Shown one piece after another: positions 4,731-64,000 of a stretch of 64,000 nt of DNA. The notes beneath the pieces are model-generated. The model was not told where the DNA came from and did not search any database. It saw nothing but the letters and a program-made list of their open reading frames with translations. Positions within the stretch are counted from its first letter, which is position 1. The number at the start of each line of letters is the position of its first letter. The DNA is taken from the NCBI GenBank assembly GCA_903813345.2, contig CAIIXF020000011.1, positions 26,032,166 to 26,096,165 of the forward strand. The letters run 5' to 3'. The translations under genes were made by a program, and so were the position numbers. Source of the DNA: Owenia fusiformis. Taxonomy: Eukaryota > Annelida > Polychaeta > Sabellida > Oweniidae.

Positions 4731-4814
4731 ATATTTACTTTTTCACGAGTTTTGATGCATAATTAGTCAGTGAGAGTCAGAATAAGTATCTTAACATAAA
4801 AAAAATAGTCATTA

Positions 4815-40664: not shown

Positions 40665-43600
40665 ATGGTCGGACAAGCTGTACGAAAGAGTGCTGCAGCT
40701 GATTTTGAGGTGAAGAAGGAGAATGAGCGACGTAGCATTGGAAGCAATGGTAAAAATGACCGAGACACAAATCCTTCCCCACGCGATGAAAATAAAACTG
40801 GCCGAAATGACCGTCCATCTGACAATAGACGAGACGATAGAAACAGGGATACACAGAAAGACAGACGAGACGATAGGGACCGTGATAATAGGCGAGATAG
40901 GGACAGAACTTCAACTACAAAAGAAGACACAAATTCCAAAACAGAAACAAAGGAAGGTGAAAAAGTTGAGAAAAAGTTCACTGGAAGATGTAGGTTATTT
41001 GTGGGGAATCTTACTTCAGATATAACTGAACGTGAATTCAGAGATCTCTTCAAACCGTTCGGTGAATGCTCGGAACCTTATCTCAATCAAGCAAGGGGTT
41101 TTGGTTTCATCAAACTGGTAAGCATGAAAATATCTCCCTCTTGTTCGACTGATCATCCTGTTGTTTCAGTAATATCCTATCACTAAAAACCATCTAATTA
41201 TATGTAAAACACTTTTATCTATTTCCCTTTGTGAAAACTCTCTCAGAATCAAATATGCATGTGTGCAAAATACAGATTCACAAATGTAGGAATGTTGTAT
41301 AATTCTATAATTTTTAGGATACCCGACAACATGCTGAAGCTGCAAAACATGCCCTCGATGGAACAGCCCGGAAACTTAAAATCCTCAGAGTAAGATTCGC
41401 AACACATGGAGCAGCACTAAAAGTAAAAAATCTATCACAATGCGTATCAAATGAACTCTTAGAGAAAGCTTTCTCCCAGTTTGGAGAAGTGGAAAGAGCT
41501 ATTGTAATTGTTGATGACCGAGGTAGATCTACGGGTGAAGGAATTGTGGAGTTTGCCAGGAAACCAGGTGCATCTCAGGCTTTGAGTAGAATCAGTGAAG
41601 GAGTCTTCTTGCTCACAACGTAAGTTTACTGCCCAATTCTTCCAAACAATTTTGAAAAATCCGTGCATTTTAACCAAGATGTAACCAATCTGTGTCAGAA
41701 TGAAATATAGTACAAAAAAACTTATAGCCATATGCTAGAAAAAGAATTCAATGATGAGACGGAATTACCGTTTGAGGTTTACTATGAAACCAAACGCGGC
41801 ACTTTCTGAGAATGCATTCCGATTGATTATTCTATTCTTTGAAACAACATTCCCACATTTAATAAACCAATTTTGTATTTCAAATTTCAGTTCGCCCAGG
41901 CCTGTGGTTGTTGAGCCTCTGGAACAGAAGGATGAAGAAGATGGTTTACCAGAGAGATACATGCAGAAAAACCAGAATTTCCAAAAGTATGTTTACATGG
42001 CTTTATTAAAAAATCCCATTTTCAAAATCTCAAACACAAAGTTGAATTCAGTGATGAGACGGAATTACCGTTTGAGGTTAACTATGAAACCAAACGCGGC
42101 ACTTTCTGAGAATTCCATTTTTGATCACATTTATCAAAGAAATCTGAAATGAACATTTTTCTGCTTGTTATAAGAAGTGACATGCATTTAGTCTTGTTGA
42201 ACAAGTGCTTTGATATTTTTAAAATATTATATTTTTTGTTGTCCAGCTCTTCTCATTTCAATGGCAAATTAGCAATTAGAAACATGTTATAGTAACATTA
42301 TTATTTGAAATCAGTAGGTGACTAATCTTGCCTGCTGTATTATTTCTTGATAGTTTAATATTGATTCGTTGAGAGGATGTTATCTCTTTATTTGATCAAA
42401 ATAAGTTAAATGAATGTTTTAAAAATATATCTTATAAACCATATAAATGCTGTCAAAATTAGGAGTGATAAAGTGAGGTATTTAGACATCACTCTTGCTT
42501 CCCAGGTCATTTCATGTGTTATTTATTATTAAGAATAAGTTATTGTATAAGTTAGTGCATTTGCATATCATGATCTTACATTATAATGATTTATAGTGGT
42601 TTTAACTTTACAATCTTAACTAAAAGTATTACCCAAGAGGCTATTACCTATACTTAGTCCACTTCTTGTTCTATTTGCGACATAAACAGATGTCATTCTG
42701 AGTATTCAAGAAGTTTTGACTTATTTTAGAGAGCGAGAAGAACCCCCTCGGTTTGCATCTATTGGATCATTTGAGTTTGAGTTTGCCCAGAGATGGAAGC
42801 AGCTCCATGTGATGAAGAAAGAACAGGAAGAGAACCTTCAGAAACAGGTCAACGAGGCCATTGAGAAACTAGAGATGGACATGGAGAATGCTATTCATGA
42901 ACAGAAAGCACATCTATTGAGACAAGGTGAGTTTGTTATAAAATAATTTGCAGTACTATTGTGTAGTAATGTGTAATTTAAAGTTTTGAAGATAAGCATA
43001 TTAAGTAGGACTAAGACCATACGTTTTAGAGGTTTGAAATTGATTTCTGTGGTTTTGTAACTTTAAAACGTACATGCAGACAAACACCATCCAAGTGAAT
43101 AAAGTTTACTTTTTACGAGATGTAATAAGTGATGCACATGAAAATGGATTCAATGATGAGACGGAATTACCGTTTGAGGTTAACTATGAAACCAAACGCG
43201 GCACTTTCTGAGAATTCCACACGATTCTATCAAATACTTTATTGAGAATTATGAACTTTTTGATCTAGTATTAACATTGTGTTTTTCTAGATCTGATGAG
43301 AAGACAGGAAGAGCTTCGTCGTTTGGAAGAGATGCGTCAAGAACAACAAATGAGACGTCAAAATGATGAGTTACGACGCAATGAAGAACGTAGACGCCAA
43401 GAAGAAATGATGCGACAGCAACAGGAAGAGATGCGCCAGCGCAGAGGTGGAAATATGGATTCCATGGGTATGGGCATGGGAGGAGGAATGAATATGAGAG
43501 GAGGGTAGGTGCAAACTATTTGTATCATATTCCACTATGCTTATCTCAATTTGTAGTCTTTCATCAATCTTACACTGAAATCTGGAAGAGAATCGAGGAA

Positions 43601-46600: not shown

Positions 46601-49600
46601 TTGGATTTTCCGTCCTGAAAACTGTCAATTCTATTCAAGGGTGCGATTCTATTCACTCTGTATCTTGTTTTGTATTATGATGATATTTGATTTAGGTTTA
46701 CTTGTGCAGTGATAACTAAATTCAGAATTTTTCAATCTATTGTCAGTGCCTTCACTCAATATATGAAATGAAAATAAATGATAGATATCATAATCATACA
46801 ATACTGTTTGGCAATGAATAATTATACCAATACCATTGAACATATCAAAAGTAGATAATGTTTGTATGTTACCATGGAGATTACATAGTTAACTTATTTT
46901 GAAATGAAACACCTGGAAAGAAGCTGATGAAGCTATTGAAAATCAAAATTGGAATATGAACTATGGTACATGTATTCAGTATAAATAACTTTTGAGGGTA
47001 ATGACATGTACATTTGTAATTGCTAATACTGTAGAAAGGAGTTCTGGAATGTTTTACTTCATCAGTGATGTCAATTATTGAGTTGTAGGAACTATTATTG
47101 GATATAAGAGTCCATGAAGGTATTAAAGAGTCAATGTCCATTTGCAAAACTGATGTTTTAGTCCATAAAACACAATAATTCATAATGGTCATCAGGAGAA
47201 AATATGGCTTGTTTCGTTTCCTATTTTTCAACCATTACAGTGATCTCCAAAGGATTTTTTCTCAAGTGGATGCAACATTCCCATTTTCACAATTGGTGAA
47301 AATATTCCCATTTTTCTCATTTTCAAGTGGGTGCAAATGGATTTTCAGGTGGGTGCAAGCCTTTTAGGTCATTTATTTTTGCATCAAGGATTTTATGTTT
47401 TGTGACAACATTTCAATGTAGATCTTTGAGATTATACTAATAGGGCATGGTAAATTGTTGAGTTATATTTGGTGTGAATGTCCATCCATCTCTAGGTAAC
47501 TTCTACATCTTTTGTGTTTTCGAATATTATACCTAATATAGGCTTAATATTATTCTACATCAAAATCAAAGGAATGTTAGATGATCTTTATAGAATAAAA
47601 TAAAATGTTACAGATTTATTGATATGTTAACAGATATACATGTGCTATATCTGTATAAAACAATAACAATACAACAAGGTCGATTGGTAGAATTGGAAGA
47701 GCAGAGCAAAGATCAAAAAAAATTAATTTTAATTTTTAAAATTCTAAACAAAACAGTGCATTTTAAACAAATTCAAACCTAAATAATTGATATGTTTTTC
47801 TGTGTGTTCTTTCAGCCCAAAGTGGCAATATTATACCAGAGTCAGTCATACAGCAACCAAAATACTATTTGATAAAAAATAATAGGAAATCATCATAGAA
47901 AACCATGAATAACAGATTCAGTTGATTATTTTTTATATTAATATATATCTGTACCATAACATCCTTTTTCTTATTCCACAAATGGCTGATTAACATTGAA
48001 TTTTAGGTTGTTTGAAAAGTGCAATGTTCAGTATTATATAATACTAGTTAACAAACACATTTTTAACAAATTTGGATATTTGGGATATTTGTATATTTAT
48101 TCAACCACCAATTATATGTGACCTAGAATGATGACATTCAGCGGATAAATATGGTTTAATAGTGATTTGAGGGATGAAGGCAAGGAGCATATGTTTAAAA
48201 TTACCACATTTGCTCTTGTATAAGTGTATGGAATCTGAGGTTAGACTTAACTAAACTATGGTGGGTCATTTGTCAATCTAGACTATTGGTGAGTTATGTT
48301 TCAAACTAGACTATGCTTAGCCATGTGTCAAACTAGACTATGCTGAGTCATGTGTCAAATGAATTATGATAAAGGACAATAAGACTACATGTAATACTAT
48401 CCTAGTGTTGAACCAGGTACTGTCACAGTTAGTTCACTTATTGGAATCTTGTTAGACGATCTGTTGGATGTTTCTATGTTTTTCAGCCATTTTGCCTTGT
48501 GACTCTCAAATCAAACCCTGACAGTAAAACTTGTATACCAGTGAAACTGAAAGCAGTTGAAGCACATTGATACATCCTCCTAAGCAGGTGTCCAGAATCC
48601 GTACCTCTTTCTTCCCCCTGCTATAACCAATTTGGAAGCGCCCGATTAAACTGAATCACGTGATCTTATTATGCGCAATGACATATACATGATTTCTGTC
48701 GCAGTGTTGCGACAGCCAATCAGATTGCGAGTTCCTAATCGGGGAAATGCTAACTGCTTATCGCAGGGGGTAAAAAGAAAGAATAATCTGGATTTTGAAG
48801 CCCTGTGATCGGAGGATGACATTGATACAACTTTAAAAAGATTCTTAAGAAATTAAAGTTCAAATCTCATTTTAATGTTTCCTTCAAATTCACGTGTCCA
48901 TGGATGCATGACTCTAGCTTTTACTTAAGTAAATTGTGTTCACAAATATACATGTTTTACTGTCTGGGTGTTCCAAAAGTATCTTGATGGCCGCTTCAAT
49001 CTATGTTACTTTGGAACACCTTGTATATCTTGAATTATTTTTGAACTGGGGGTAAGGACTCCTATTACATTTGTTATTCGTGGTTTTGTAATACACAAAT
49101 ACTGTATTTGTGCCAATGGATAGATAGGAAAATGCATGAATATTTTTACTAACTTGTTCAACTGCTACTGTATGCTATATTATAAATATTATCTTTTGTA
49201 CCAGTTTTCTTGCAGATGATATTGTTTATAGAAAAATGCCATATTAGGAATTATGGAATGATACCATATAAGGAGTTATCAAGTAGTGCCATATAAGGAG
49301 TTATCAAGTAGTGCCATAAAACAAAATATCGAGAGTCAATTCACAACGCAGAAATTGGGGTTTCTAAGAGATTGGTAATGTTTTTTAAAAAAGTGATAAA
49401 AAATCAAAACACTAAAAAAGTTAAATTGTTATGCATTCATCTCAGGTACCACTTATTTCAGTGGAGTTCTAACAATATAAGTGTGATACCATGTACCAGC
49501 AGGACTGTTCTTGTAAATACACATTTAGTCAGAATGTTATTGATGTGTTCAGTCCATCCAAGGATGAATGACAAGACCCAACTGTATATTATACGTAGTT

Positions 49601-52290
49601 GTTTTCAGTGTATCAGTAAATTGAAATTGTTAAATATAAAATGGCCATCCCCTTGCTTTGCTAGATGATACGTGATGTACTTCATGCCACCAAACGGTGA
49701 TAGGTTTCTGAAGTTCTTCCCTTCATATCTCATAATAAACATCTCTTTAGACCATTTCACAGACTGCAATTTCCTGCAGGATCCAGGATCTCATTCAGGT
49801 TTCACTTGTGTGATAATGGCAAAAGACAGGATCTCATTTTGAGAATTTCATCAAATCCTCCAATTTGCCAAGATCCATTTTTATTGCTCCATTTACCTAT
49901 AAAAAGCTATTCCTGTGAAAAACTAAGTCACTGAGAGTAAATAATGAGGCTGTTTACTATAAAGTCAGTTTCCAATAGGCACTAGACCATAATTTGAAGT
50001 TTGTTAATGTTTTACTGAATGAGTTAAGAACAGGTGGTGGCAACGGTGGCATATTGTTATAGTCTTCAACTTTTTTGTGGTGGCGGTAGGTGTTTGGCAT
50101 TCAGTGGTTTGTGTTCAGCAGTTGCCATTTGGTGTTCATAACAAATGGCAGGTCGTGACATTTTGCATGTTAAGTCCTAGTTCTACAGTCTACATTTCTT
50201 TTCTTGATTTTTGGATCACATGGTGGGCTAAGGGAAGTCATTCTTTTCGAAAATGTCCTAAGATTGACACATTTAGATTTCTTCCATGTGGATTTTTATT
50301 GTCACACTTTTTGGTCCTGTTTTGCTGAGGTCTTGTGCTGATTGGCATCTGGGCAGTCGGGCATAAATATTGTCTTCAATATCCAGGAAAACAACTCGAA
50401 ATTTTTACAGATGCAAGAGCAGACTATTTGCCAAGATCTTATTTTGGACAAACCTTTTCGAAAAAGTGTGATACATTTATCACTGCATGTCAAATATTTC
50501 TCTTCTCTTTTATAACATTCTTGACATCGGCAGGTGAATGCTAAAAAAGCATGGCTCAATGCCCAATGTTTCTTTCTATTTTAAAATGACCGATTTTGAT
50601 CGAATTTAGTTTCATCCTTCAATTATTTTTATTTCATCAGACCTATATTAAGTAAATATTATATACATTGAATAGGTTACTAAAGAATTGTAAATATTTT
50701 TAAAATGGAGTAATAGTGTATGATGTAGGAGTGCAATTTCAGTTTCATTGTCACAAGGAAAGTGTTTCCTCTGATTTTGTAGGAACCATTGATTAATAAA
50801 CATAACTAGGGGGAGGAATTGTCTTTAAGAGTTGAAATGTTCTAATGTAAAAGTACATAATATAAAGCCCAGTATACCAATCAGGCAAAATCCTACTTGC
50901 CCCATCCAGTTCCAACTTGCCCCATAGTCCCACGAAGTCCCATTGGACCCTGATTGAGTCCCATCGAGCCCCATGGAGTCAAATCATACCGTGCCTCACT
51001 CCATGGGGCAAAATCCCAATAAGTCCCACGTAATGTTAAGTCTATGGAGGTCCAAACTTGCCCCATTGGTATATACCGGGCTTAAGACTGGAAAATGTTG
51101 ATATTCATCCACAGATGTTTCTTACTTCACCAAATGTTACTATACCATGAAGTTGCATTTCTCAGTTCAACATCAAAAGGAGGCAACATGGTTCTAAATT
51201 CATAATTATTAATGGATACCTTAGGCTAGATTACATTACATCTTACCAATATGATGTTGTTTCTTAGCACTGATATTACTTTACCTAAGTATGGATTGCT
51301 AAGTAAGTGTGAGGCCCTTTGTTGGTAATATCGGGATTATATCAGAGTTTGTATGTAGAAACTCAACCTATAAGTAAACTGGATAAATTGTACTTTAAGA
51401 CAAAACTTATATGAATGCATAACAATTGTAAAAATCAAAATTGTAAAAGATCAATCTCTTAGCATAGCCCCAAAGGATGTCTATACTTTTGATAACTAGT
51501 GATGCTGCGGATGATTCAAATCTATATAATATGGGATGCAGCAATTATTCCTTATAGCATTTAGGAACCCAGTTTTGTTGATATGCCAGACTTCAATGAT
51601 AAATCCCTTATAAGAGGATATTATAGGTTATAAGACCATATAAGGCATTGAATCTAATTTCGATATCTTTGTTTTCTTTATTTCATCTCACCTTGATGTC
51701 ATCCAAAATGATTGATCCCCATTGAACACTCATCACCATCTATACAAACATTATATCCCATAATGATAAACATCGGACATTATATCCCATAATGATAAAC
51801 ATTGGATTTGGATAAACATCTAATGATTCTGAACATTTTCGTTTCTAACATGACTGTCATTCAAATCTTGAATTATGAATTGTTGGATCACTCAACTATA
51901 ATGGACTTTTAATAATGGTTTGATAAACAGCCTGCCAGACAATCCCGCTTTGACCAACCCGCACCAAGTATGGGTGGTAGTGGTAACCGTGGTAGCGGTG
52001 GCAATTTCAACCAATATGGCAACCAAGGAGGTTCTGGAATGAATATGGGGGGTTCTAATACCAAATATGGTAATCAGGGTATGGGTATGGGAGGAGGTAA
52101 CATGGGAGGGGGTAGAGATGGACAGGGTATGGGTGGAAACATGGGAGGTGGTGGCTCAGGGGGTATGCAAAGGGGAGGAGGCAATGGGATGGACCAACGA
52201 GGAGATAGGATGATGGATCGCCGTGACAACAGAAGTGGTGGTGGTGATGGATATGATGGTTATGATCAGAAACGACAGAGGAGGTTTTAG
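40665..52290 (+). CDS. DBHS-family RNA-binding protein (NONO/SFPQ/PSPC1 homologue), 9 coding exons, 659 aa
   Basis: Coding exons: 40665-41117, 41318-41619, 41891-41986, 42730-42926, 43291-43504, 43722-43848, 44590-44706, 44970-45083, 51931-52290. They sum to 1980 nt and every junction phase agrees. Residues 1-105 are charged and Arg/Asp-rich. RRM1 (about 109-180) has CRLFVGNL and [11 protein letters not shown]2 (about 183-255) has LKVKNL and GEGIVEF, with [19 protein letters not shown] almost as in human NONO. The NOPS segment ([19 protein letters not shown]) and a long Arg/Glu/Gln coiled coil follow, then a Gly/Met/Gln-rich tail ending KRQRRF. Known relatives are nuclear paraspeckle/splicing/transcription proteins acting as dimers. 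Introns 2, 3 and 4 each contain a C/D snoRNA. The start fits CACCATGG. Invertebrates usually have a single DBHS gene, so NONO versus SFPQ is not meaningful here. Confidence 0.92.
41744..41815 (+). ncRNA. C/D-box snoRNA, family A copy 1 (DBHS intron 2)
   Basis: C box ATGATGA at 41751-41757, D' TTGA at 41772-41775, C'-like TATGAAA, D box CTGA at 41806-41809, closed by an ATTC/GAAT stem. The D' guide GGAATTACCG (41761-41770) is a perfect 10-nt complement of CGGUAAUUCC in the 18S 530-loop. Five nt upstream of D' is the A that pairs with the U after CGG. That U is Um627 in human (SNORD65) and Um578 in yeast (snR77), from memory. The D-box guide (ACGCGGCACTTT) has no target I recognise. Same strand as the host intron. 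Confidence 0.88.
42044..42115 (+). ncRNA. C/D-box snoRNA, family A copy 2 (DBHS intron 3)
   Basis: C box GTGATGA at 42051-42057 and D box CTGA at 42106-42109, closed by a GAATTC/GAATTC stem. The body equals copy 1 except for the short D'-C' spacer (GAGGTTAACTATG here, GAGGTTTACTATG there). Same predicted 18S target. Confidence 0.88.
43146..43218 (+). ncRNA. C/D-box snoRNA, family A copy 3 (DBHS intron 4)
   Basis: C box ATGATGA at 43153-43159, D box CTGA at 43208-43211, closed by GGATTC/GAATTCC. Body identical to copy 2, including the GAGGTTAACTATG spacer, while flanking intron sequence is unrelated. Same predicted 18S target. Confidence 0.88.
48590..48805. repeat. MITE-like element in DBHS intron 8
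   Basis: CCAGAATCCGTACC, TTTCTTCCCCCTGCTATAA on the left pairs with TTATCGCAGGGGGTAAAAAGA and AATCTGGATT on the right, giving inverted ends of about 35 bp with mismatches. The centre includes TGTCGCAGTGTTGCGACA, itself a small palindrome. Confidence 0.45.
50031..50175 (-). repeat. Dispersed ~130-bp repeat family, copy 6 (inverted)
   Basis: Read on the minus strand it begins AACATGCAAAATGTCACGACC and ends with GTTGCCACCACCTG. It is the only copy in this orientation. Confidence 0.5.
50875..51085. repeat. Palindromic MITE-like element with AAGCCC ends
   Basis: Left AAGCCCAGTATACCAAT and right ATTGGTATATACCGGGCTT are inverted. The interior is rich in CTTGCCCCAT and AGTCCCA(T/C) phrases in both orientations, so most of the 210 bp can fold back. 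Target duplication not clear. Confidence 0.5.
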
Positions 52291-52756
52291 ACCAGAATGC
52301 AACAGTGGAACAAACATTTAATGTGTAATAGTAGAGAGAAAGTGTAAATGTCAAAACATATTTTACTTAAATGACAGTTTTAGAAAACAGAACTTCTAAT
52401 CTATCAAACTCTCAAAATGAGAAGAAAGTTCTTAAGAAAGATTATGTCTTGTTTATATTTTATCACAAGGGAACATTGTAGTTTGTACATTTGTAATATA
52501 AAGAAGTAATTTACCCCGAAAGTCAAATCATGGACAACTTAGCAAAATGAACATAATGTCCCAGCCAATTTAACATTGTACATAGATTTTAGTCTGAATT
52601 CAGTTAAACTAATATAATTGATTGCATTATGACTATTTATTTGCGATTATAAATGCAATTTGTTTTAGATTTTGATCATGTAGCAAACAACTATTCAGTT
52701 TGAGAATTATATCTGTAAATAATATATATACATATTTTGTGGTAAATTGTACGTTA

Positions 52757-52762
52757 AATAAA
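52757..52762 (+). terminator. Candidate polyadenylation signal of the DBHS gene
   Basis: AATAAA about 470 nt after the DBHS stop codon (52288-52290), followed by T-rich sequence. It is the likely end of the 3' UTR. Confidence 0.55.
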
Positions 52763-53590
52763 TGTCGTAAATAATATTTTAATTCATGTTTCACATTTTT
52801 TACTGACACCAGTAAATGGTCAGATCTGTATCTGGATTGACCACTGGGATATAAAAGTTGTACTAGAGAGGCATAGGAATAATACATGGGGACATCTGCA
52901 CATCACAGCAAATCAGATGCAGTTTTGATTTATGAAGAAATGAGATGAATATTGTCAGTCAGTATGGGGTTGGGAAGAAAAAACTGGGTAGGTATGTGAG
53001 AAAAGAAAGCTGTTGGAACCCTTTGAAAATTACATAGTGGTTCGAGTTATTTAATGTCAAGCATTAGACAATTCTACATATTTGTATGTTGTGAAAATGA
53101 TGTTTTGTACTAATTGAGATTATTATGATTCAGTTAAGTATTTGCATGATAATTTGTAAGTACCTTATGACCTATAGGCAAAGTCAGAGAGCTAATGTCT
53201 GTTATTGTGATCCTATATTGCCCCGATGTATTCATCAGGATATGTAACTTGTACCTTTACCTTGGAACCAATCGTGCTACTGACTAATGAATGTTTATAC
53301 CAAAGATTTTTGATGGCGCAAGTTACACATGACTATGATTAAAGACACTTTGGGGTTATTAATGATCTGAATTACCCATGCTGTGGGCAATATAGTAAAC
53401 TTGATAATGCTCTTTGGACAAAGTAATTAAATTAATATAGACTGTTGGCGGTTGGGACTATATAGACATATATAAGCTGAAACTGAAGCTGACTTTTTAG
53501 ATTGCTAACAGCATTGGGCTAACAGCATTAGAGGATGTCTTCCAGTATGAGGAATGTTATTAAATCATGAAAATTGTCAACTTTTGATCA

Positions 53591-53760
53591 CCAAACTTGT
53601 TATTTTCGCCATTCTCGGGTGTGACGTCACAGTACAACACAATACATAGATTCCCAGATGAATGAATAGATGTACACCCGTTCATGTATAGAGAATTAGA
53701 GTGTGGTTATGCTATGCTTCATTCCGATTGGTGGAGAAACTCAATAAGAGAATGGTCATG
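53591..53760 (+). repeat. Dispersed repeat, copy 2 (partner of 565-745)
   Basis: Aligns with 565-745 in the same orientation; see that entry for the shared blocks. Here TGACGTCA appears where the first copy has a diverged sequence. Confidence 0.55.
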
Positions 53761-56700
53761 TTTGAATTTGAAATACAGTACAAGTCTTATTTTTACATGT
53801 TGCATTATTCTCTGAATAAGTTGGCTATTTCAAACTACGATGTTAAGGATGCAGTACCGGGTCGGTTTTCACGTCTGTTTGCGCAGGTTTGACTTCCGGT
53901 TTGAGAAAGCTAGCTCCCAAGAACGTCATTTTCGCATTTAGTCTTATTCAAAAATTATAGTTTATTTCGATAATGGTGTTTCCAGAAAAGAATTAAATTG
54001 CAAACATTTTATTAAGCATATTTTATCCCTTTCACTTTTATGGGAAAACTTGTTCTTGAGTCGCAATTAGTGGATACGAAAACCAGGGTTCGAAAGGTGC
54101 CAGCTCTATTGAAAACTCAAAAAAGTAAAAAGATTCATTTTGGGTGGGTAAAATAATTTTTTTATTTTGTAATTACCAGACGGTCAATCCTCTTCATATT
54201 GCACTTGGATGATGATAACATCATAGTGATACATTGTAAAAAATATGAGCAAAATCTAATGTCTGGAACTTTTTCTACGCTGACCTGGTACTGCATCCTT
54301 AAGTCTCATACTTTGTTATTATTACAATATCTGACTCAATTATGAGTATTTGTCTGTTGAGGTCCATTGATAAACAAGTATCAGCTGTCAAATTCGGTTC
54401 AAACTTTATACTGGTACAAGAACCAACGGTTGAACAATATTTTCAAAATGCCTGCTTTAGAAATTGTTATCATTTTCTGCGAAAAACATTAATAAATGAT
54501 AACTCAAGTATTACTCATTGGATTTTGGTAGGTTTTAGGTTATAGGCTAATGCATAGTGAGCACATATTATGTTAACAAGCGTAACCATATTTAGGAAAC
54601 TGAGACATTCTCAAGTAAAATATTATGCAGAAACATGATATTTTGAATAAAAATGACCTGAAGATGCCTTGATAATTTGAGATTTTGATTCCACGGCAGT
54701 CACCATTTTAATGAATGGTGATATATTTGGTACCATCTTGAAACTTGTAACATATGCTTCAATTTGGTAGCTGAATTATGACATCAGATGATTAATGGTG
54801 ATTATAACTTGAAAAATAAGTATAAAAATGCAGCAAAATAATGGCAGTACTCCACCATTGATTTGCTGATTCACTACTTGCCACAATTGACTTCACTTTA
54901 TCACTGGATATCCTTCAAATATCTAAGTTGTCATTGTTACCAAAGCCGCATAGTTACTATGGTATGGCAACTGTGAAATGGGAATAAAAATTTGTGCAAA
55001 ACATTACCCAAACTTAAAATAATAGCACTAATTACTAGGTAAATATTTCTAGATGTACAATTTTCCTTAACTTTCAATATCATCTAGAGCACCCTGAGAA
55101 AACATATAATTAAAAAAAATTAGGAAAGGTTTATCACTCATTTTTTGCTAGGCTTGGCCAAAGTAAAACTATGAAAAAAGCACTCATTTTCACATAAGAA
55201 TCTGCTATTATCGCAAATGGCTATATTTTATCAAGGTCATCATTTTAAAACAGAGTCCGACAATGTTTGACTGTTTTTTTTTAGAATGAAACAACGATTT
55301 TTGCACTGATGCACCAATTTCCACAAGATTATTCACACGGAAGGGAAACTGAATTATGTCTCAATGGCCATTTTTGCACTACTTTTGGTGGAATAAATCC
55401 TTATGAACATGTAGCTTTTGCTTGTGAAAACTTTGACAAATGAAAAGACTTGTTTCAACTAGATTTGATGATAATTGTTTACAAGTTGTCTGCCCCACTC
55501 TCTGACATGACTTTTTGAATGAAAGACAAACCCTGATATTAAAAGCCAAACATGTTGCCAGTATTTATAAATGATTTTAATTTTATAGAAAAGTTATGGA
55601 AAAGTTGATGGTTTATAAAAAACACAACTGTAATAAAAAAAAATCGAAAGAGCTCTTCGGTTGTTGTGCCTCTCAATCTTCTATATACTATAAACTTCTA
55701 TGTCATGGGATTGCGAGGGGGTGAAATGGTGATATCTTAGTGGTTACTAGTACTGCCAGGTAACTGTAATAAAGAGAAATACTAGAAGAATTTGCTTGAT
55801 AGTAATGATGGCCACAATGAACAGAATCAACAGATTATAGTTACAGGCTTTAGAAGATGACAACACATCACCATGGAAACCAGTTTTGAGCATTACCAAA
55901 TATGGAAATAACTGAGGTATGTATTCACTTCTTTTGCTTTATACTCCTGTTTACATGTGCTTGCTATTTATTGTGATTTTTGTAGGTGCAGATTTGATGA
56001 TTTGATCATCATCCAAGGTTTCACTTAGGTGTAAGAGGAATATTGATATTCAATAACTCTAAAATGAGGTGTGAAGGGACTGTGGGTATTAGATTTTTAA
56101 CATGTCACAATATGATACACTGAGGTGACTTTAATCTATTAAGTGAAGTTATGTTAAATTAATGATGATAATTTGGTTCAAAGTTCTTCTGCCAGCAGCC
56201 AAATATATTAGGGTGATAGTATGTATGATGAATGAACATCTAGGTTACTGGCATGCTAAGCATACAAAAACATTCAACTTCACCATACTGAAATTATTTG
56301 GAATTGAAGTTTCCATCTTTTCTTTGTGGTCATTTGGTCAATGTAAAACAAAATCTTCTAGGGTTTCGATGGAAGAGTCCTTGAACTGCAGCTTGCCATT
56401 GTTCACTTTATATTCACATTGCCATTAACACACAAAATCACATTTATTTGAATGTTACATGATACTATATTTTCTGGAGGTTACATTTTATGAGGTTGAA
56501 AATAACAATATTCAAAGTACAGTCATGGTGATATTAAAGGAATTAAAATGGTTATGATGTCATCCTTTACAACATTTTATGATTTTTGGAAGATGCAACT
56601 TGGCACATCTTCAGTATTTCTTAGGGTTTTTATTAGTTGAACAATGTATTCTTTCTTGTTCGTGAGGGTACCCTTTTCAGAAAGGTCAACATCTAATTTT

Positions 56701-58406
56701 ATTTCCTGAAATCTTGATGATGTCATTCATGCTTGGCAAATGATAAGCTTATAGATTTAACCAGTCAGTGGAGGTGTGTCGGCAAATGATAAGCTTATAG
56801 ATTTAACCAGTCAGTGGAGGTGTGTCTAAAAGGTATATTTTATTTGGGGACTTTAAAATCTCTTAAAAAACTCAGATGGATGGAAAATATTGTTGAAATT
56901 GTCTATGGAAACTTGAACCCCAGTCAGATTGAAACGGAGCTGCATTTGTAGCAGTTATTCTGAACCTAATGGACAAGGCACTTATGTGCCTATTGGAAAC
57001 TTCATTTCTTATCCACGATTTGTTTCATCTTTGATTTCCAAGGTACAAAATTGATTAAATATTAAACTGGTTAACAATGATGGATTTATATCCTCATAAT
57101 ACAAGTGCATGATGGAGGGCTAACTGTTTACTGTAGGGGTAAATTTTCTCTTTTTCTGCTTAATACAGGGGTGACAGTTTAGTGAATGGGCTAAAAAAAA
57201 TTATTTTGTACCTGATACAGGGGTAACAGTTTAAACTTAAAACTGTTGACTACCTGATTAACCTACTATTTAATGGTCAACACTATTCCATTTATGTTTA
57301 AATGAGTTGGTCATAAAAAGTAGTTTAATCCTGTAGCCAGCAGCCAAAAATTGCATTCATGAATATAAGCTTAACCAAATCACACCATATTTGGAGAACT
57401 ATCAGTCAGTCTTTCCACTTTATTGATTTCAGTACGTAGGTAAAATTAAAAAATGACCAGAACATATACATTTTTATTTCTTTTACTGTACATTGAATAA
57501 TCCACACTTACTGTCGTCGAAAGGTATGCTTATGACCTTGAGTTGTTTAAGGACATAAAGGTATCTGAGAAAAAATAAGAACAAGCGTGTGTGTCGACAC
57601 TCAGGACTATGAATAGGCCATAATCACATTATATGATGACTTTATAATTGCCTTGACAACTTGTTTAAAAGTGAAAACTTTTATGAATACAAACATTGTT
57701 AATTACTTTGTATCGACATACATGTACTATGGAAAGATAGGATGCAATGACTTTACCTTTCATTGGACATGATTTATGACTCCAAACAGCAAACTAGAGT
57801 TGAAAATAGGCAAAGACAAAAAGGATGTCATTACTAAGGATTAAATGTACAAAACATCTCATTGGATTGATTTTTTTAATTTGCCTATTGTTCACTTTTC
57901 CAGAAAAATATTCTATTTCAATATTTTAGGAGAAGTAGAGTAAATGATAGTAAACCATCAAGTTGAATATTTTGACTCTGGCTTGCATACTGTATAGTTA
58001 TATCAAAGGCTTAATTGAAGAATTTTGCATTTTAATTACATTTTTGCATAATTTGATGATGTCATACAATTTTGAGGAGTGTTATGTACCACAAAACTGA
58101 TGATGATGCTTACCATTATTGTGCAAATTCTATATAAGAAACACTTTCATAAGCCAACACTGTTGTATGTGTTCAGTAACATGTGCTTTTATTTCAGATT
58201 TTGATTCCATGAATAAATCTTATCCAGGAATGTTTCAGTAGTAAATGCCTTTATAGTAAAAGTAAATGGGTAGACAAAGAATAAATTTTAAATTCTAAAA
58301 TTATGTCTGTATAAACTATATTTTATATAATCTAAAAAACATACATTCAAATATATTAGGCACGTCCTTTACTAAGGTTCTCATTTTGTACTGCTGTCTG
58401 TTTTAG
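53761..58406. other. Intergenic AT-rich DNA, no gene recognised
   Basis: No exon with a recognisable product or convincing splice sites was found. An exact 46-bp tandem duplication lies at 56735-56780 and 56781-56826 (unit starts GGCAAATGATAAGCTTATAG). The promoter of the snoRNA host unit should be near the right end, but I could not place it. Confidence 0.5.
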
Positions 58407-58501
58407 CTTCAAAGTGTTGGTGCCTGATTTTACAACAATCTTGAGGAAAGGCTTCCAATGGAAAGTGTCTCTACAATTCCATATCTGCTCTCACAATGAA
58501 A
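58407..58501 (+). pseudogene. RPL13A: Possible first RPL13A coding-exon relic
   Basis: Between TTTTAG and GTAAGG. AAAGTGTTGGTG followed by ATCTTGAGGAAAGGCTT resembles the RPL13A start (KVLVxD...LLGRLA), and the end ...CAATGAAAG sits where the next exon of RPL13A would join. Similarity is patchy, so this assignment is weak compared with the three relics downstream. Confidence 0.4.
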
Positions 58502-58947
58502 GTAAGGCAAAATGATGGTTGCTACAGTTTTGAACTCTATTAGATATCTAAAATGACTTGACCATAGCCAGTATACAATCAGTAGATTCCTATGCATCAA
58601 CGCACACAATTAAAATATTATAGAGTTCAGTAAAAACATAAAGCGAACATATTGAATACAAACAAAAGTAAGCACACTTTAAATATATGTATACATAAAC
58701 CATTAAAATCTATTTATTACATAAATCACTATTAAAACATCAATGAGCTCTAAATAAGGGAGTGGAATGATATGGTAGAGGTGGTGTTGACTAGGGAAAC
58801 CTGGGAAATGCTGCACATCAAACCTGTTTTACCTTAATTTTAACATAACATAACAGATTCATAACATAACTGATAATTTTATGATACCGGTGATGAATAA
58901 AGAAGTTATGTTAAAGCTTGTGTTATAAATCCTTTAAATGTTTTTAG

Positions 58948-59055
58948 TAGCATCATGATGAGCTTTTGAAGAAGCAGAGAGATGGTAGACTGGTTGAACT
59001 TAGGAGGTGGATAATAAGGAAGAAGAGTCTGGGTTATGCTGCACATCAAATCATG
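58948..59055 (+). other. Host exon H1
   Basis: Bounded by TTTTTAG and GTGAGT. Contains ATCATGATGAGCTTTTGAAG and GGGTTATGCTGCACATCAAA. A related phrase (GGGAAATGCTGCACATCAAA) at about 58800-58825 looks like a decayed copy. Not RPL13A. A short open frame exists but is not shared by the other cassette exons. Confidence 0.5.
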
Positions 59056-59095
59056 GTGAGTTGTTATTCTCAAAATTATTTGACAAAGAAAGGAT

Positions 59096-59169
59096 CAAAT
59101 TCAATGATGAGACGGAATTACCGTTTGAGGTCAACTATGAAACCAAACGCGGCACTTTCTGAGAATTTG
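59096..59169 (+). ncRNA. C/D-box snoRNA, family A copy 4 (host unit)
   Basis: C box ATGATGA 59104-59110 and D box CTGA 59159-59162, closed by a perfect 7-bp stem CAAATTC/GAATTTG. Spacer GAGGTCAACTATG. Guide GGAATTACCG unchanged. Confidence 0.88.
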
Positions 59170-59257
59170 AAAGTATTATTATTTTGAAATATAGAAAATT
59201 CAGTCAAAATATCTACACTTATGTATCATAAGTAATATGTTGTGTTACAAATTTTAG

Positions 59258-59346
59258 CAATGGAGGAGTATGGTGAAATAGAGGAAGAGCCATTCTGGAG
59301 TTAGATAATGAGCTTGAAGACTGTCTTCAGAGATGTCAATTTGATG
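59258..59346 (+). other. Cassette exon H2 of the snoRNA host
   Basis: Between TTTTAG and GTAGGT. Shares with H3, H4, H8 and H9 a start CAATGGAGGAGTATGGTGAA-like sequence, GAAGAGCCATTCTGGAG and an end CAATTTGATG or its variant before GTAGGT. The ATG frame stops after about 14 codons. Confidence 0.65.
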
Positions 59347-59412
59347 GTAGGTAGTCTACAAATTAATGCTTTTCATTATTGTATTATTTTACATTTATAA
59401 TAGTTAATGAAT

Positions 59413-59481
59413 GATTCTGTGATGAGACGGAATTACCGTTTGAGGTAACTATGAAACCAAACGCGGCACTTTCTGAGAATC
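59413..59481 (+). ncRNA. C/D-box snoRNA, family A copy 5 (host unit)
   Basis: C box GTGATGA 59419-59425, D box CTGA 59473-59476, stem GATTC/GAATC. Spacer shortened by one base (GAGGTAACTATG), a form shared with copies 6 and 8. Confidence 0.88.
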
Positions 59482-59577
59482 TACACCAAATGATTTTAAA
59501 GTTTTATTTTTGGAATAGTCATTATTTAATTTGATGTATTCAAGTTATACATTGTTTCATTTTACAGCAATAAAAAG

Positions 59578-59659
59578 AGTGAGGTGAAATCTAAGACCCA
59601 TTTTTGAGCCTGATGAATGAGCTTGAAGACTGTCATCAGAGATGTCAATCAATTTGATG
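59578..59659 (+). other. Cassette exon H3 of the snoRNA host
   Basis: Between TTTACAG and GTAGGTA. Contains GAGCTTGAAGACTGTCATCA and ATTTGATG as in H2; the first half has diverged. A 580-bp element is inserted seven bases into the following intron. Confidence 0.6.
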
Positions 59660-59666
59660 GTAGGTA

Positions 59667-60246
59667 CCCCCCTATCACACCAAACTAGTTCTTACCCGTT
59701 CTTGCCAGTCCTACGAAAATGTCATAAAACGGGCTCAATCTGGCTGCGGTCGGGATAAATGTCTAAAATAATTAGCTACTTCGTTCATAAACAGTCTTCA
59801 ATACGTCCATCTCATTTGCAGTTCGTTCAGGTCGCACTACGTCGGTGTGCAACGTAGTAGAAACCGTCCCTTAGTTTAGAAGGTCATCATGACCTGATTA
59901 CAGAACGGTATGGTCGCCATCAAATTTTGAATCGATTCAAAATTCTAAATCACATACCCCGTCTGGGAAAGTCCTAAAGTTCGTAAACAGACCGTAGAAC
60001 GTTGTATCTACGTTCATTCAGTTCGCACACAGTTTAAAACCTATTCGGCAACGTTTTGACGATCACCAGAAAATTTTGAGCATGCTCTAAGTGCTGGAGA
60101 ACCTACTCGTTCTAGTAGTTTCATGAAGTTTGTAAACAGATCCCAAACGGTTCTTAGTGGGTTCTTAGTACATCAAATCCGTTCGTGCACAGTTTAAGCC
60201 CGTTTTCGAGAATGTAGTGAGAACTAGTTTGGTGTGATAGTAGGGG
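59667..60246. mobile_element. 580-bp inverted-repeat element inserted at a splice donor
   Basis: Ends CCCCCCTATCACACCAAACT and its approximate inverse (AGTTTGGTGTGATAGTAGGGG), flanked by TA (59665-59666 and 60247-60248). The flanks rejoin as GATGGTAGGTAGTCTACTTC, the sequence found uninterrupted after exons H2 and H9, so the empty site can be reconstructed. The donor GTAGGTA survived. Confidence 0.75.
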
Positions 60247-60331
60247 TAGTCTACTTCTTAAACTGTAAAAAATCCTTTTCAATCCTTTTCATAACTACTG
60301 TCTTATTTTACATTTATAATAGTTAATGAAT

Positions 60332-60400
60332 GATTCTGTGATGAGACGGAATTACCGTTTGAGGTAACTATGAAACCAAATGCGGCACTTTCTGAGAATC
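60332..60400 (+). ncRNA. C/D-box snoRNA, family A copy 6 (host unit)
   Basis: C box GTGATGA 60338-60344, D box CTGA 60392-60395, stem GATTC/GAATC. One change in the body (CAAATGCGG for CAAACGCGG), in the D-box guide. The 18S guide is intact. Confidence 0.85.
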
Positions 60401-60484
60401 TTTGACAAAATAATTTTAAAGTTTATTTGTGGAATAGTCATTCAATTTGATGTATTCAAGTTATTACAGTGTTTCGTTTTATAG

Positions 60485-60564
60485 CAATGACACAGAAGTT
60501 GGATGAAATTGGAGAAGAGCCATTTTGGAGTCTGATGACTGTCTTCAGAGATGCCAATCTTATG
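60485..60564 (+). other. Cassette exon H4 of the snoRNA host
   Basis: Between TATAG and GTAGGT. Keeps GAAGAGCCATTTTGGAGTCT and GACTGTCTTCAGAGATGCCA. Its ATG frame happens to stay open through the donor, unlike the other cassette exons. Confidence 0.6.
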
Positions 60565-60650
60565 GTAGGTAGGTAGTCTTCTTCTTAAACGCTAAAAAGT
60601 CCTTATGAATGATATACATTGCAGTATATTGTTGTACACGTTTAATTCTT

Positions 60651-60700
60651 AGTGAACGATTCTATGATGCACCAAAAATGATTCTACATAGTAAGCAACC
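60651..60700 (+). pseudogene. Decayed family A snoRNA remnant
   Basis: GAACGATTCTATGATGCACC has the stem and C-box start of family A (compare AAGATTCTATGATGAGACG at copy 7), but the body with both guides is missing. It lies in the cassette position after H4, upstream of SNORD33 copy 1. Confidence 0.5.
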
Positions 60701-60742
60701 CCAGAAGATATAAAATTATATCCATCAGTTACAATGTGAAAT

Positions 60743-60827
60743 ATTTTGCCAATGATGATTTGTAACCGCCTTTCGTTTGATTCACTCTGTGATGTCATTT
60801 TACATGCACTACCAACTGAGGCAAAAT
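60743..60827 (+). ncRNA. SNORD33: SNORD33 copy 1
   Basis: Perfect 8-bp stem ATTTTGCC/GGCAAAAT, C box ATGATGA 60752-60758, D box CTGA 60816-60819, C' TGTGATG. The D guide CATGCACTACCA is complementary over 12 nt (one G-U) to UGGUGGUGCAUG of 18S, and the D+5 rule points at the U known as Um1326 in human. Human SNORD33, hosted in RPL13A, has the same CACATGCACTACCA guide (from memory). It sits just before an RPL13A relic exon. The D' guide has no firm target. Confidence 0.85.
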
Positions 60828-60895
60828 TTGCAGTTGTTTAACAAAATGTTCAAACAGTTTTGATCAATTATAACCACATTTATTTCATTCTGCAG

Positions 60896-60957
60896 GGCAA
60901 GTGTTGTCATAGGTCACTATGAGGGAACCAATATCTGGTAGTCCTACAGAAACGAAC
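60896..60957 (+). pseudogene. RPL13A: RPL13A relic exon (about human residues 31-51)
   Basis: Between CTGCAG and GTAAGT. TGTTGTCATAGGTCACTATG then GAGGGAACCAATATCTGGTA and CTACAGAAACGAAC align base by base with sequence coding VVVVRCEGINISGNFYRNK, but with shifts and an in-frame stop. The exon ends one base into the Leu codon, as required by the next exon. Confidence 0.7.
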
Positions 60958-61022
60958 GTAAGTTATAATTAATTTATGCAGAATAATTAAAGGATATGGA
61001 GAATTGTGTTTATCTGTAGACA

Positions 61023-61105
61023 TTTTGCCAATGATGATTTGTAACCGCCTTTCGTTTGATTCAGTCAGTGATGTCATTTTACATGCACTACCAACTGAGG
61101 CAAAA
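61023..61105 (+). ncRNA. SNORD33: SNORD33 copy 2
   Basis: Stem TTTTGCC/GGCAAAA, C box ATGATGA 61031-61037, D box CTGA 61095-61098. The body differs from copy 1 only around D'-C' (TTCAGTCAGTGATG for TTCACTCTGTGATG). The 18S guide is unchanged. It lies in the intron after the first RPL13A relic exon. Confidence 0.85.
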
Positions 61106-61514
61106 ACTACACTGTCTTCGTGTTCAGAAATTTTAATGGGTACCAAATTCGGAGTTACATTTACATTCAGAACCAAAATTTTAGTGACAACATTGAATCT
61201 AAAAAATAAGCAATTGAACCTCCACATTGCAACATTATATGGCTTCTTGCAAATGGAAATAAAGCAAATAATGATCTCCAAATAATTCTTAAAATGTTTT
61301 CATGGTATTTTTTAAGTAAAAAAGCCACTTGAATGCATTCATATGAGATCTAATTCCCCTGAGATAATCAGGTTTTACATGTATGTCTGAAAAGGGAAAC
61401 TATCTTCTAAAAGTCAGTCTCAATGGAAAGCAGCTACAAAACATCGCAGTCCTTAAAGGGTGAAATTGAAAATCAGAACTGGAAATGAACTATTGATACT
61501 GTAATATATTTCAG

Positions 61515-61589
61515 TGAAGTTCTTGGCATTTTTGCGCGAGTGTCTAAACTTTGGGACCACATTCAAGATCTTCTGGAGGACAGTTACAG
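61515..61589 (+). pseudogene. RPL13A: RPL13A relic exon (about human residues 52-84)
   Basis: Between TTTCAG and GTAAGC. Reads KFLAFLRE, then CLNFGTTF, then KIFWRTVT, matching RPL13A KYLAFLRK...RIFWRTVR with about ten residues missing between. The first bases TG complete the Leu codon begun in the preceding exon. Confidence 0.85.
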
Positions 61590-61660
61590 GTAAGCCAAGA
61601 CAACCTCTTTATTTTTGTTATGTAGTCAGTGAAATAATATTGATTAAATCTGCATATTAA

Positions 61661-61745
61661 ATTTTGCCAGTGATGATTTGTAACCGCCTTTCGTTTGATT
61701 CAGTCTGTGATGTCATTTTACATGCACTACCAACTGAGGCAAAAT
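61661..61745 (+). ncRNA. SNORD33: SNORD33 copy 3
   Basis: Perfect 8-bp stem ATTTTGCC/GGCAAAAT, C box GTGATGA 61670-61676, D box CTGA 61734-61737. Same body and 18S guide as copies 1 and 2. It lies between two RPL13A relic exons. Confidence 0.85.
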
Positions 61746-61824
61746 AGCAGATGCTTACACACTTCCAAAATCTAAAATTCAGTTTATGCCTTTCCATATC
61801 TAGAAATTATTTTATTGTTTTAAG

Positions 61825-61949
61825 GTATGGTTCCTCACAAGCTGATCTGTGGTAAAGAGGCTTTGGACAGACTTAAAGTGTTTGATGGCATTCCCCTACC
61901 TTACTTGTATCTGCTTCTAAGGTTCTCCACCTTTACCCCAAACAGACGA
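61825..61949 (+). pseudogene. RPL13A: RPL13A relic exon (about human residues 85-134)
   Basis: After TTTTAAG, ending before GTAAGT. Reads [18 protein letters not shown] then VFDGIPLPY, unmistakably RPL13A ([27 protein letters not shown]). A deletion then removes the DKKKRM part and shifts frame; [13 protein letters not shown] in the other frame matches VPAALKVVRLKP. So the exon was coding RPL13A and is now broken. Confidence 0.9.
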
Positions 61950-62320
61950 GTAAGTTGTTTTCCTTTAATATATATCTCTGAATAAATCTCAAAAGGATGC
62001 TTTATATAAGGTTTTAGTGATGATGAACATTTTACCTACATTGTCTGACAAAATCAGTGATCTCAATCATTTCTGTACAGAGGTACATCTGAAAAACCTT
62101 AAATTCACTTGCTTTGATACAACTTCTCTTGATACAAAATTTGATGTAGGAAATGTGAAAAAATATTATTTGGTGTACTACTATACATTGCTATACCTTG
62201 CATGTAGTGTAGGAGTTGGGCTTGAATTTGAAAACAGAATGTATTTTGAAGTTTAAAAAATTCATTCAAGAAGTCTACAATGATGTATCATAAGTAATAC
62301 AATGTTTCATTTTTATGTAG

Positions 62321-62409
62321 CAATGGAGGAGTGCGATGAAATGGAGGAAGAGCCATACTGGAGTCGGATAATGAGCTCGAAGACTGTCATTTGAAATACC
62401 AAACTGATG
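62321..62409 (+). other. Cassette exon H8 of the snoRNA host
   Basis: Between TTATGTAG and GTAGGT. CAATGGAGGAGTGCGATGAA, GAAGAGCCATACTGGAGTC and ATAATGAGCTCGAAGACTG make it the closest match to H2, although the two lie on opposite sides of the RPL13A relic exons. Confidence 0.65.
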
Positions 62410-62484
62410 GTAGGTACTCTACTTTTTAAACAGTAAATAGTCCCAATTACATTAAAGTGTTGTGCAACTTTAATTGTTACTGAA

Positions 62485-62556
62485 AGATTCTATGATGAGA
62501 CGGAATTACCGTTTGAGGTCAACTCTGAAACCAAACGCGGCACTTTCTGAGAATTT
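62485..62556 (+). ncRNA. C/D-box snoRNA, family A copy 7 (host unit)
   Basis: C box ATGATGA 62492-62498, D box CTGA 62547-62550, stem AGATTC/GAATTT. Spacer GAGGTCAACTCTG, as copy 4 with one change that weakens C'. The 18S guide is unchanged. Confidence 0.85.
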
Positions 62557-62650
62557 AAAAACAGAATTTATTTTGAAATACATATGCATAAATTTAGTAA
62601 ATAATTTAAATTAATGTATCAAAAGTAATACTGTGTTACATTTTATAAAG

Positions 62651-62726
62651 CAATGGAGTATGGTGAAGTAAAGAAGAGCCATTCTGGAGTCTGTAGACTG
62701 AAATTTACAAGAAAACCAAACTGATG
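62651..62726 (+). other. Cassette exon H9 of the snoRNA host
   Basis: Between ATAAAG and GTAGGT. Keeps CAATGGAGTATGGTGAA, AAGAGCCATTCTGGAGTCTG and ACCAAACTGATG. The acceptor AAAG is weaker than its neighbours. Confidence 0.55.
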
Positions 62727-62846
62727 GTAGGTAGTCTGCTTCTTAAACAGTATATAGTCCCTATTACACTATAGTGTTGAACAGTAAAAGTCCTTATTAA
62801 TGTTTTACATAATTGTAAAATTTTACATTTATTATTGTCAGTGAAT

Positions 62847-62915
62847 GATTCTGTGATGAGACGGAATTACCGTTTGAGGTAACTATGAAACCAAACGCGG
62901 CACTTTCTGAGAATC
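62847..62915 (+). ncRNA. C/D-box snoRNA, family A copy 8 (host unit)
   Basis: C box GTGATGA 62853-62859, D box CTGA 62907-62910, stem GATTC/GAATC. Spacer GAGGTAACTATG as in copies 5 and 6. Confidence 0.88.
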
Positions 62916-63037
62916 TATGACAATCTGATGATAAAGTTCATTTGTGGACTAGTTCCCAGTAATGTATGACACTAATGTGTCCCAGTACAATTTCATTGAT
63001 GTTACATTTATCATTAAAAGAAACATATATATTTTAG

Positions 63038-63092
63038 ATGACAAAAAATCCAAAGTTGATCTGGCTGCACACACGAAACAGCTACATCTAAA
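63038..63092 (+). other. Last traceable host exon (H10)
   Basis: Between ATTTTAG and GTGAGT. Reads DKKSKVDLAAHTKQLHLK in one frame, which weakly resembles RPL13A DKKKRMVVPAALKVVRLK; the overlap with the previous relic makes this doubtful. Confidence 0.35.
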
Positions 63093-63629
63093 GTGAGTAT
63101 AATCTTTACATAATATAGCATCACTATTATATCTTCACAGACCCCATATATTGGACATCTAAAAGCCAAACCTTTGATTGACCGCACAGCGGGAATGCAA
63201 AGTTTAGGAAACAATGCCTGAGTGGTATGAAGCAGCTACAATGCATTGAGTCTTGGGCTTAAATTCTTTTCACACATTGCAAATTTTTTCCTATAAAATC
63301 ATCTTTAAGGAACGAAATCACTTAAAGAACACACTTTCAATGACATTTTTTTGGAAGGGTAAAGTTGGAAAGTCATCAAAACCAGTGGGAAAAATCCATT
63401 CATCACCATGACAACTGTTTAGCGACATTGCATGTGTTATTTATATTTCACACACTGTACATTATGTGAATACTCTGTTTGGATTGACTGGAATCGGACA
63501 CACCTTGCCTAGCTATGTGTGAATTGATAATTAAATGTACTTTTTAATGAGGTCTGAGGCATAATGAACCCCCTGCTGAGAGTTAATATAATAAATGTCC
63601 CAACAAAAAATAAATTGATGGTCACCTAG

Positions 63630-64000
63630 AAAAAGCACCAATGGCAACATGAATGAAATACAAAGTAGATATAACTTAAAGATTCACGAATAAATAAAAA
63701 GAAAATCATATTTTTGAAAAATATTTAAGGTTTAATTTGAAGGGGAAAAACAAGATGGCTGCCATTTTATGTGAGAAGTATCACAAAAAATGTTGCTTTA
63801 CTTGTAATTTTCACATTGAGCACAGTTTTCTGGTTTGGATTTTTTGGATTGACTCTGATTGTTCATCATCAGGTACATGTATAGATGTTGTAAAATTGAA
63901 ACCAAAATCTTGTGCTCAGTGTGAATTTGAATGAAATATTCACAACTCCACCAACACAATTAGGTTGTCAAAATTGGTTGCCCAGTAACTTGAGAGACTA
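63630..64000 (+). repeat. Dispersed repeat, copy 2 (partner of 4815-5245)
   Basis: Same orientation as the first copy and cut by the window end. Shares AAAATCATATTTTTGAAAA, AAACAAGATGGCTGCCATTT and GAGCACAGTTTTC. Confidence 0.55.

Follow-up and report, generated by a model that had tools for sequence, protein, structure and literature searches.

Broken RPL13A exons and intact SNORD33 copies within a tandem C/D snoRNA array of the annelid Owenia fusiformis

How does a non-coding host gene come by its small nucleolar RNAs (snoRNAs)? In hosts of the GAS5/UHG type the origin of these RNAs is mostly hidden because the host exons have decayed. The question is raised by a locus of Owenia fusiformis, at 58407-63092 (+) of a stretch of 64,000 nucleotides (assembly GCA_903813345.2, contig CAIIXF020000011.1, positions 26,032,166 to 26,096,165), called the window below. 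There, a tandem array of one C/D snoRNA encloses three broken exons of RPL13A together with three copies of SNORD33 and a SNORD34-like snoRNA. The unusual feature of the locus is a coding donor that is still readable within the remains of another snoRNA. We consider it probable that a non-coding snoRNA host resembling GAS5/UHG here captured introns of RPL13A, rather than that an RPL13A gene lost its coding function where it stood.

RPL13A exons and their snoRNAs

The RPL13A part of the locus, which in human numbering we take to begin within intron 2 and to end within intron 5, was resolved into these features:

60670..62223 (+), RPL13A genomic fragment, about 1554 bp; array homology stops at 60669 and restarts at 62224
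60745..60825 (+), SNORD33 copy a, C box at 60752, D box end at 60819; Rfam RF00133, 58.7 bits
60896..60957 (+), RPL13A exon A, matching human residues about 33-51, with one in-frame TAG and a 1-codon gap; frameshift-aware scoring, splice sites
61024..61104 (+), SNORD33 copy b, C box at 61031, D box end at 61098; Rfam RF00133, 58.0 bits
61515..61589 (+), RPL13A exon B, matching human residues about 52-85, with a 9-codon in-frame deletion; tblastn, frameshift-aware scoring, splice sites
61663..61743 (+), SNORD33 copy c, C box at 61670, D box end at 61737; Rfam RF00133, 59.9 bits
61825..61949 (+), RPL13A exon C, matching human residues 87-112 and, weakly and out of register, 118-131, with a frameshifting deletion; tblastn, PDB match
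62009..62099 (+), SNORD34-like C/D snoRNA with a 9-bp terminal stem; RF00147, 30.8 bits (gathering score 38), boxes, stem, guide

A preliminary description of this DNA had named three RPL13A exons from their sequence, order and phase, and tblastn, PDB matches, Markov nulls and a single joined frame all bore this out. With a human RPL13A sequence as query in one tblastn across the whole window, exon C was found at E 3.7e-7, with 74% of 27 aa identical, and exon B was found at E 0.09. The read-through of exons B and C matched 56 uL13-type PDB sequences, the best at E 1.8e-20 (a chain matched twice) and vertebrate L13a chains at about 2e-13. In frameshift-aware scoring, which places exon ends up to 2 bases off, exons B and C scored 56 and 97, values reached by none of 120 Markov samples each, and the joined exons A-B-C scored 172 (0 of 40 samples). 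Exon A was weak by itself: 2 of 120 Markov samples reached its score, and under looser scoring it was only the fifth distinct place on the plus strand, with a score of 36 that five minus-strand tiles (39-55) exceeded. Spliced to exon B, it outscored all 400 control stretches preceding a GT.

Joined at the predicted splice sites, the homologous exons stood in order and gave a single frame against human residues 33-112. This frame held one stop (the TAG of exon A), a 1-codon gap and a 9-codon gap, whereas 4 and 5 stops stood in the other two frames. Towards its end, exon C was open but out of register with its weak match to residues 118-131, and one frameshifting deletion must therefore lie there. 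A frameshift in exon A was rejected, since the joined exons keep one frame at that place. The broken frame and the deletions of the preliminary description thus stood, but its plural stops and frameshifts came down to one stop and one frameshift in A-B-C. The locus holds no complete, intact RPL13A coding sequence, only human residues about 33-131 being recognisable; an intact RPL13A gene would be expected elsewhere in the genome. Neither a start exon nor C-terminal exons of RPL13A were recognised by window-wide tblastn or by frameshift-aware scoring of the candidate exons of the host model described below. Those beginning at 63038, 58407 and 58948 were rejected as RPL13A, as 21, 112 and 58 of 120 Markov samples reached their scores; for 63038-63092 this also disposes of a role as C-terminal exon.

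The SNORD33 copies were as intact and nearly identical as had been stated. All three exceeded the RF00133 gathering score of 44 (58.0-59.9 bits), they agreed at 81-82 of 84 positions, and they were the only Rfam matches at gathering threshold in the whole window. The SNORD34-like RNA, like the array around the RPL13A part, had been absent from the preliminary description. It missed the gathering score of RF00147 and is therefore filed only as SNORD34-like. Against a 28S stretch (Um2824), used without a control, its guide formed a run of 15 pairs, two of them GU, with a U at the fifth position. In a permissive-threshold Rfam search covering 50000-64000, no SNORD35 match appeared at E up to 1.

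The surrounding array and the insertion joints

On both sides of the RPL13A fragment, exon and intron repeat in tandem, and five of these units carry an intact C/D snoRNA of the SNORD65/snR77 type. The intact snoRNAs were identified by boxes, stem, core alignment and guide, the repeated exons by array homology, splice sites and profile:

59104..59162 (+), SNORD65/snR77-type snoRNA H0, C box to D box
59258..59346 (+), repeated array exon h1, 89 nt
59419..59476 (+), SNORD65/snR77-type snoRNA H1
59568..59659 (+), repeated array exon h2, 92 nt
59667..60245 (unstranded), inverted-repeat element with 29-nt ends, 90% complementary, in the array intron just past the h2 donor; at E 1e-5 the window gave no second copy
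60338..60395 (+), SNORD65/snR77-type snoRNA H2
60485..60564 (+), repeated array exon h3, 80 nt
60658..60669 (+), stem and C box of an interrupted sixth array snoRNA, H3, whose 3' flank restarts at 62224; array homology
62321..62409 (+), repeated array exon h4, 89 nt
62492..62550 (+), SNORD65/snR77-type snoRNA H4
62651..62726 (+), repeated array exon h5, 76 nt
62853..62910 (+), SNORD65/snR77-type snoRNA H5

A profile built from h1-h5 recovered these exons at nhmmer E 3e-13 to 4e-25. Their donor end, ATGGTAGGTA, was identical in all five though the exons differ, and from their lengths it follows that some length changes were not multiples of three. The snoRNA cores were far better kept than their surroundings: summed over the 10 pairs, 567 of 581 aligned positions were identical (98%), as opposed to 295 of 489 in the upstream and 525 of 801 in the downstream flanks (60-66%). 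Core identity exceeded flank identity in every pair (Fisher p 0.042 to 6.4e-11; the pairs are not independent, and gaps were excluded). That snoRNAs were retained while exons died, as the preliminary description had it, is therefore borne out by the array, but not by the RPL13A part, where exon decay is mild.

The array snoRNAs are predicted to work like SNORD65/snR77/snoR77Y (CL00057), without being filed as a member. In all eight copies, three of which lie in introns of an upstream gene (see below), the guide formed 11 pairs, one of them GU, with an 18S stretch (Um627; no control), again with a U at the fifth position. Taking all guides together, nucleotide 5 stood opposite a U in 12 of 12 snoRNAs (three rRNA stretches, without shuffled control). 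The predicted sites fit the table in PMC3511168, which gives Um627 for HBII-135/snR77, Um1326 for U33 and Um2824 for U34. The stretch before the D box (AAACCAAACGCGGCACTTT), a putative second guide of the SNORD65-type RNAs, was identical in seven of the eight copies, with one change in H2. A scan of viral contigs gave no match to the array snoRNA.

The relation between array and RPL13A fragment can be read at the two joints. To the left, 60565-60657 aligned with the introns before H2, H4 and H5, at scores that in each case none of 500 Markov samples reached, and with the intron before H1, where 2 of 500 did so. This alignment continued through stem and C box, GATTCTATGATG (60658-60669; C box 60664-60669), and then ended; inside the joint, 60670-60744 was compared with three units and matched none of them (202-374 of 500 samples). 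To the right, 62222-62320 matched the introns after H0, H1, H2 and H4 (0 of 500 each), the homology restarting at 62224, the first base past the D box in other units. Inside this joint, 62110-62221 matched no unit clearly (53-257 of 500). Homology thus stops at the C box of H3 and restarts past its D box, so the RPL13A fragment replaced the H3 body. Both ends of the fragment join halves of one array unit, and at least that unit therefore came first.

These joints bear directly on the reading of the preliminary description, a complete duplicate RPL13A gene that lost its coding function in place and became a non-coding host, to which the SNORD65-type units would have been joined later. Exons A-C in one frame and introns of the SNORD33/34 type in the expected order would suit such a history. 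It does not explain, however, why the fragment meets one array unit precisely at its C box on one side and directly behind its D box on the other; moreover, the adjoining candidate exons are not RPL13A, and whole-protein tblastn gave no better than E 0.4 for other parts of RPL13A. All that can be recognised of RPL13A runs from intron 2 to intron 5 and sits within one array snoRNA. We consider a whole gene decayed in place very improbable and do not find it supported.

Under the capture that we favour, segmental duplication would first have produced the tandem units, each with an exon devoid of coding signal and an intron carrying a C/D snoRNA, a predicted guide for 18S Um627. A 1.55-kb genomic fragment of RPL13A would later have entered one unit, taking the place of the unit's snoRNA between C and D box. 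It would have brought in SNORD33 (three copies, 18S Um1326) and the SNORD34-like RNA (28S Um2824). The RPL13A exons, without a usable reading frame, would act as spacers whose splicing frees the snoRNAs. The joints fall exactly at the C box and just past the D box of the resident snoRNA, which would fit a cassette swap, with conserved snoRNA boxes as the recombination points at which intron-exon cassettes and their snoRNAs move from a coding to a non-coding host. We put this mechanism forward tentatively and hold it to be rather doubtful. If true, non-coding hosts would grow by gathering snoRNA introns from coding genes.

Host model and rival explanations

The splice sites of the locus were scored with a set of weights and expressed as percentiles among the GTs or AGs of the window. 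The sites around the RPL13A exons had been called good, and we agree: the donors of exons A, B and C fell at the 97.2nd, 99.9th and 97.8th percentile, the acceptors at the 98.5th, 71.9th and 85.6th. For comparison, with the same weights, four exons of an upstream gene of the DBHS kind gave donors at 92-99.9 and acceptors at 80-91. Three candidate exons complete a model of eleven:

58407..58501 (+), first candidate exon on the upstream side; placed by splice-site matches only
58948..59055 (+), second candidate exon on the upstream side, with a good donor and an average acceptor; splice-site matches
63038..63092 (+), candidate downstream exon, good donor, poor acceptor (29th percentile); splice-site matches

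Across the eleven, all donors lay at or above the 97th percentile and acceptors ranged from the 29th to the 98.5th. The first of the ten introns holds no snoRNA; each of the nine that follow in succession holds one, on the sense strand. In seven of the nine, the D box stands 76-127 nt ahead of the next exon. A scan of the window for C box, D box and terminal stem gave 12 hits, nine at this locus, two in the DBHS gene (of its three copies) and one at 46075-46195, and 0-3 hits in each of 20 Markov-simulated sequences. The longest open reading frame of the model transcript was 57 aa, a length reached by 95 of 500 shuffles, that is, no long reading frame was found. Near the second candidate exon, 58759-58830 and 58990-59052 share CTGGG..ATGCTGCACATCAAA; the latter copy lies within that exon, and the former may be a decayed copy.

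Several points weigh against such a host. Promoter, 5' terminal oligopyrimidine (TOP) sequence and first exon were not located, and the transcript is one we infer. The three candidate exons at 58407, 58948 and 63038 were placed by splice-site matches only, the last with its poor acceptor at the 29th percentile. SNORD33 copy b and the SNORD34-like RNA stand 416 and 228 nt ahead of the next exon. The SNORD34-like RNA, at 30.8 below the RF00147 gathering score of 38, is surpassed by SNORD33 copy a with the same model (32.3), a model that discriminates poorly (SNORD33 copies 28.0-32.3, array copies 24.9-29.4). Likewise all five array copies stay below the snoR77Y gathering score (27.2-30.1 as against 52), and SNORD33 copy a also reaches 27.2 with this model (CL00057). 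The RPL13A exons are only mildly decayed, with one stop in 87 codons when joined, and no alignment could be made of the introns surrounding the SNORD33 copies, so that selection on the inserted snoRNAs is presumed. Finally, short-tract gene conversion could also yield the core identity of the array.

Another reading is a dead, untranscribed locus, a fragment of RPL13A beside old snoRNA copies whose identity stems from recent duplication or gene conversion. The promoter and transcript that were not found, the inverted-repeat element inserted in one intron and the broken coding sequence would all agree with it. Nevertheless, array cores were kept at 98% where the flanks of the same units fell to 60-66%, donor sites were kept as well, and boxes, stems and guides were intact in nine of ten host snoRNAs, the tenth being the one interrupted by the insert. 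We judge a dead locus quite unlikely. We presume that the locus is transcribed and spliced and that its snoRNAs are processed.

Another uncertainty concerns the origin of the array itself, not the insertion. About 16 kb upstream of the array and on the same strand, three copies of its snoRNA (41751-43211) lie in a gene from about 40665 to 52290. This gene encodes two RRMs and a NOPS domain and is presumably of the DBHS kind (NONO/SFPQ/PSPC1):

41751..41809 (+), SNORD65/snR77-type snoRNA D1, in a DBHS intron; core alignment, guide
42051..42109 (+), SNORD65/snR77-type snoRNA D2, in the next DBHS intron; boxes, stem, core alignment, guide
43153..43211 (+), SNORD65/snR77-type snoRNA D3, in the following DBHS intron; boxes, stem, core alignment, guide

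The array could then be a partial duplication of that gene, comprising the NOPS exon and its two flanking snoRNA introns. Apart from the shared snoRNA in three introns, array and gene space their snoRNAs similarly, and a blastn match with gaps (66%) extends across two snoRNAs and the exon between them. Outside the snoRNA, however, no significant exon similarity and no clear intron similarity between array and DBHS gene was found. The scores of the array exons against the NOPS exon were reached by 67-388 of 1000 shuffles, and profiles of five rows gave no match to the DBHS unit at E values up to 10; anywhere upstream, their best hit had E 0.75. For the three lowest of 27 flank comparisons, 3, 7 and 9 Markov samples out of 300 scored as high. 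Shuffle scores and profile search thus reject the array exons as decayed NOPS exons, and we regard descent from the DBHS gene as unlikely. A weak resemblance of h1-h3 to about 46990-47090, in a DBHS intron (no null run), was missed by the profile search and dropped. The C/D-like candidate at 46075-46195, in the last long DBHS intron, is within chance expectation.

Known hosts and other elements of the window

SNORD115/116 in SNHG14 are known as tandemly repeated units, each made up of a small exon and a C/D snoRNA. The Owenia array resembles these, but its copies are few, their predicted guide is directed at rRNA, and the introns of a second host are inserted. With hosts of the GAS5/UHG type, such as the chicken gas5-like host with ten C/D snoRNAs described in PMC2653536, the locus as modelled here shares several C/D snoRNAs, one per intron, and exons without a long open reading frame. 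The difference is that RPL13A-derived exons and introns stand here between repeated exons of other origin.

Vertebrate RPL13A is described in PMC8142323 as host of SNORD32A/33/34/35A. SNORD33 and a SNORD34-like RNA occupy places between the same exons in Owenia, but SNORD33 is present in three copies, SNORD35 gave no match at E up to 1 and the coding sequence is not intact. In yeasts, a protein gene can be lost and its snoRNA retained in one copy after duplication (PMC4202332, PMC3596301; deintronization, Mitrovich 2010). The likeness to our locus lies in the lost coding function of a presumed duplicate and the snoRNA kept; in the cases described there, however, splicing signals degenerate, whereas here the splice sites stay and the piece joined an existing snoRNA array. 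Long non-coding RNAs from lost protein-coding genes (PMC5577775) also have coding exons that decayed into a non-coding spliced locus. The main text of that paper makes no mention of snoRNAs, whereas the likely remaining function here is in the introns.

Among the matches listed for the open-licence PubMed Central literature, we found no RPL13A fragment inside a snoRNA host. The locus suggests that a non-coding host can acquire snoRNAs through capture of a coding host's introns. At this locus one can still recognise the donor gene and place both joints to the base, and the older array offers an internal gauge of constraint.

Some further elements of the window were noted. The element at 53843-54303 has inverted ends with TTAA on either side and is probably what is left of a transposon; the window holds no other copy of it at E 1e-5. 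A dispersed repeat occurs at 63524-64000 and 4722-5229 (74% identical), and 25950-27282 is a long minisatellite with a TGGCCCCCAGAAGCTATACGA-like unit in both orientations.

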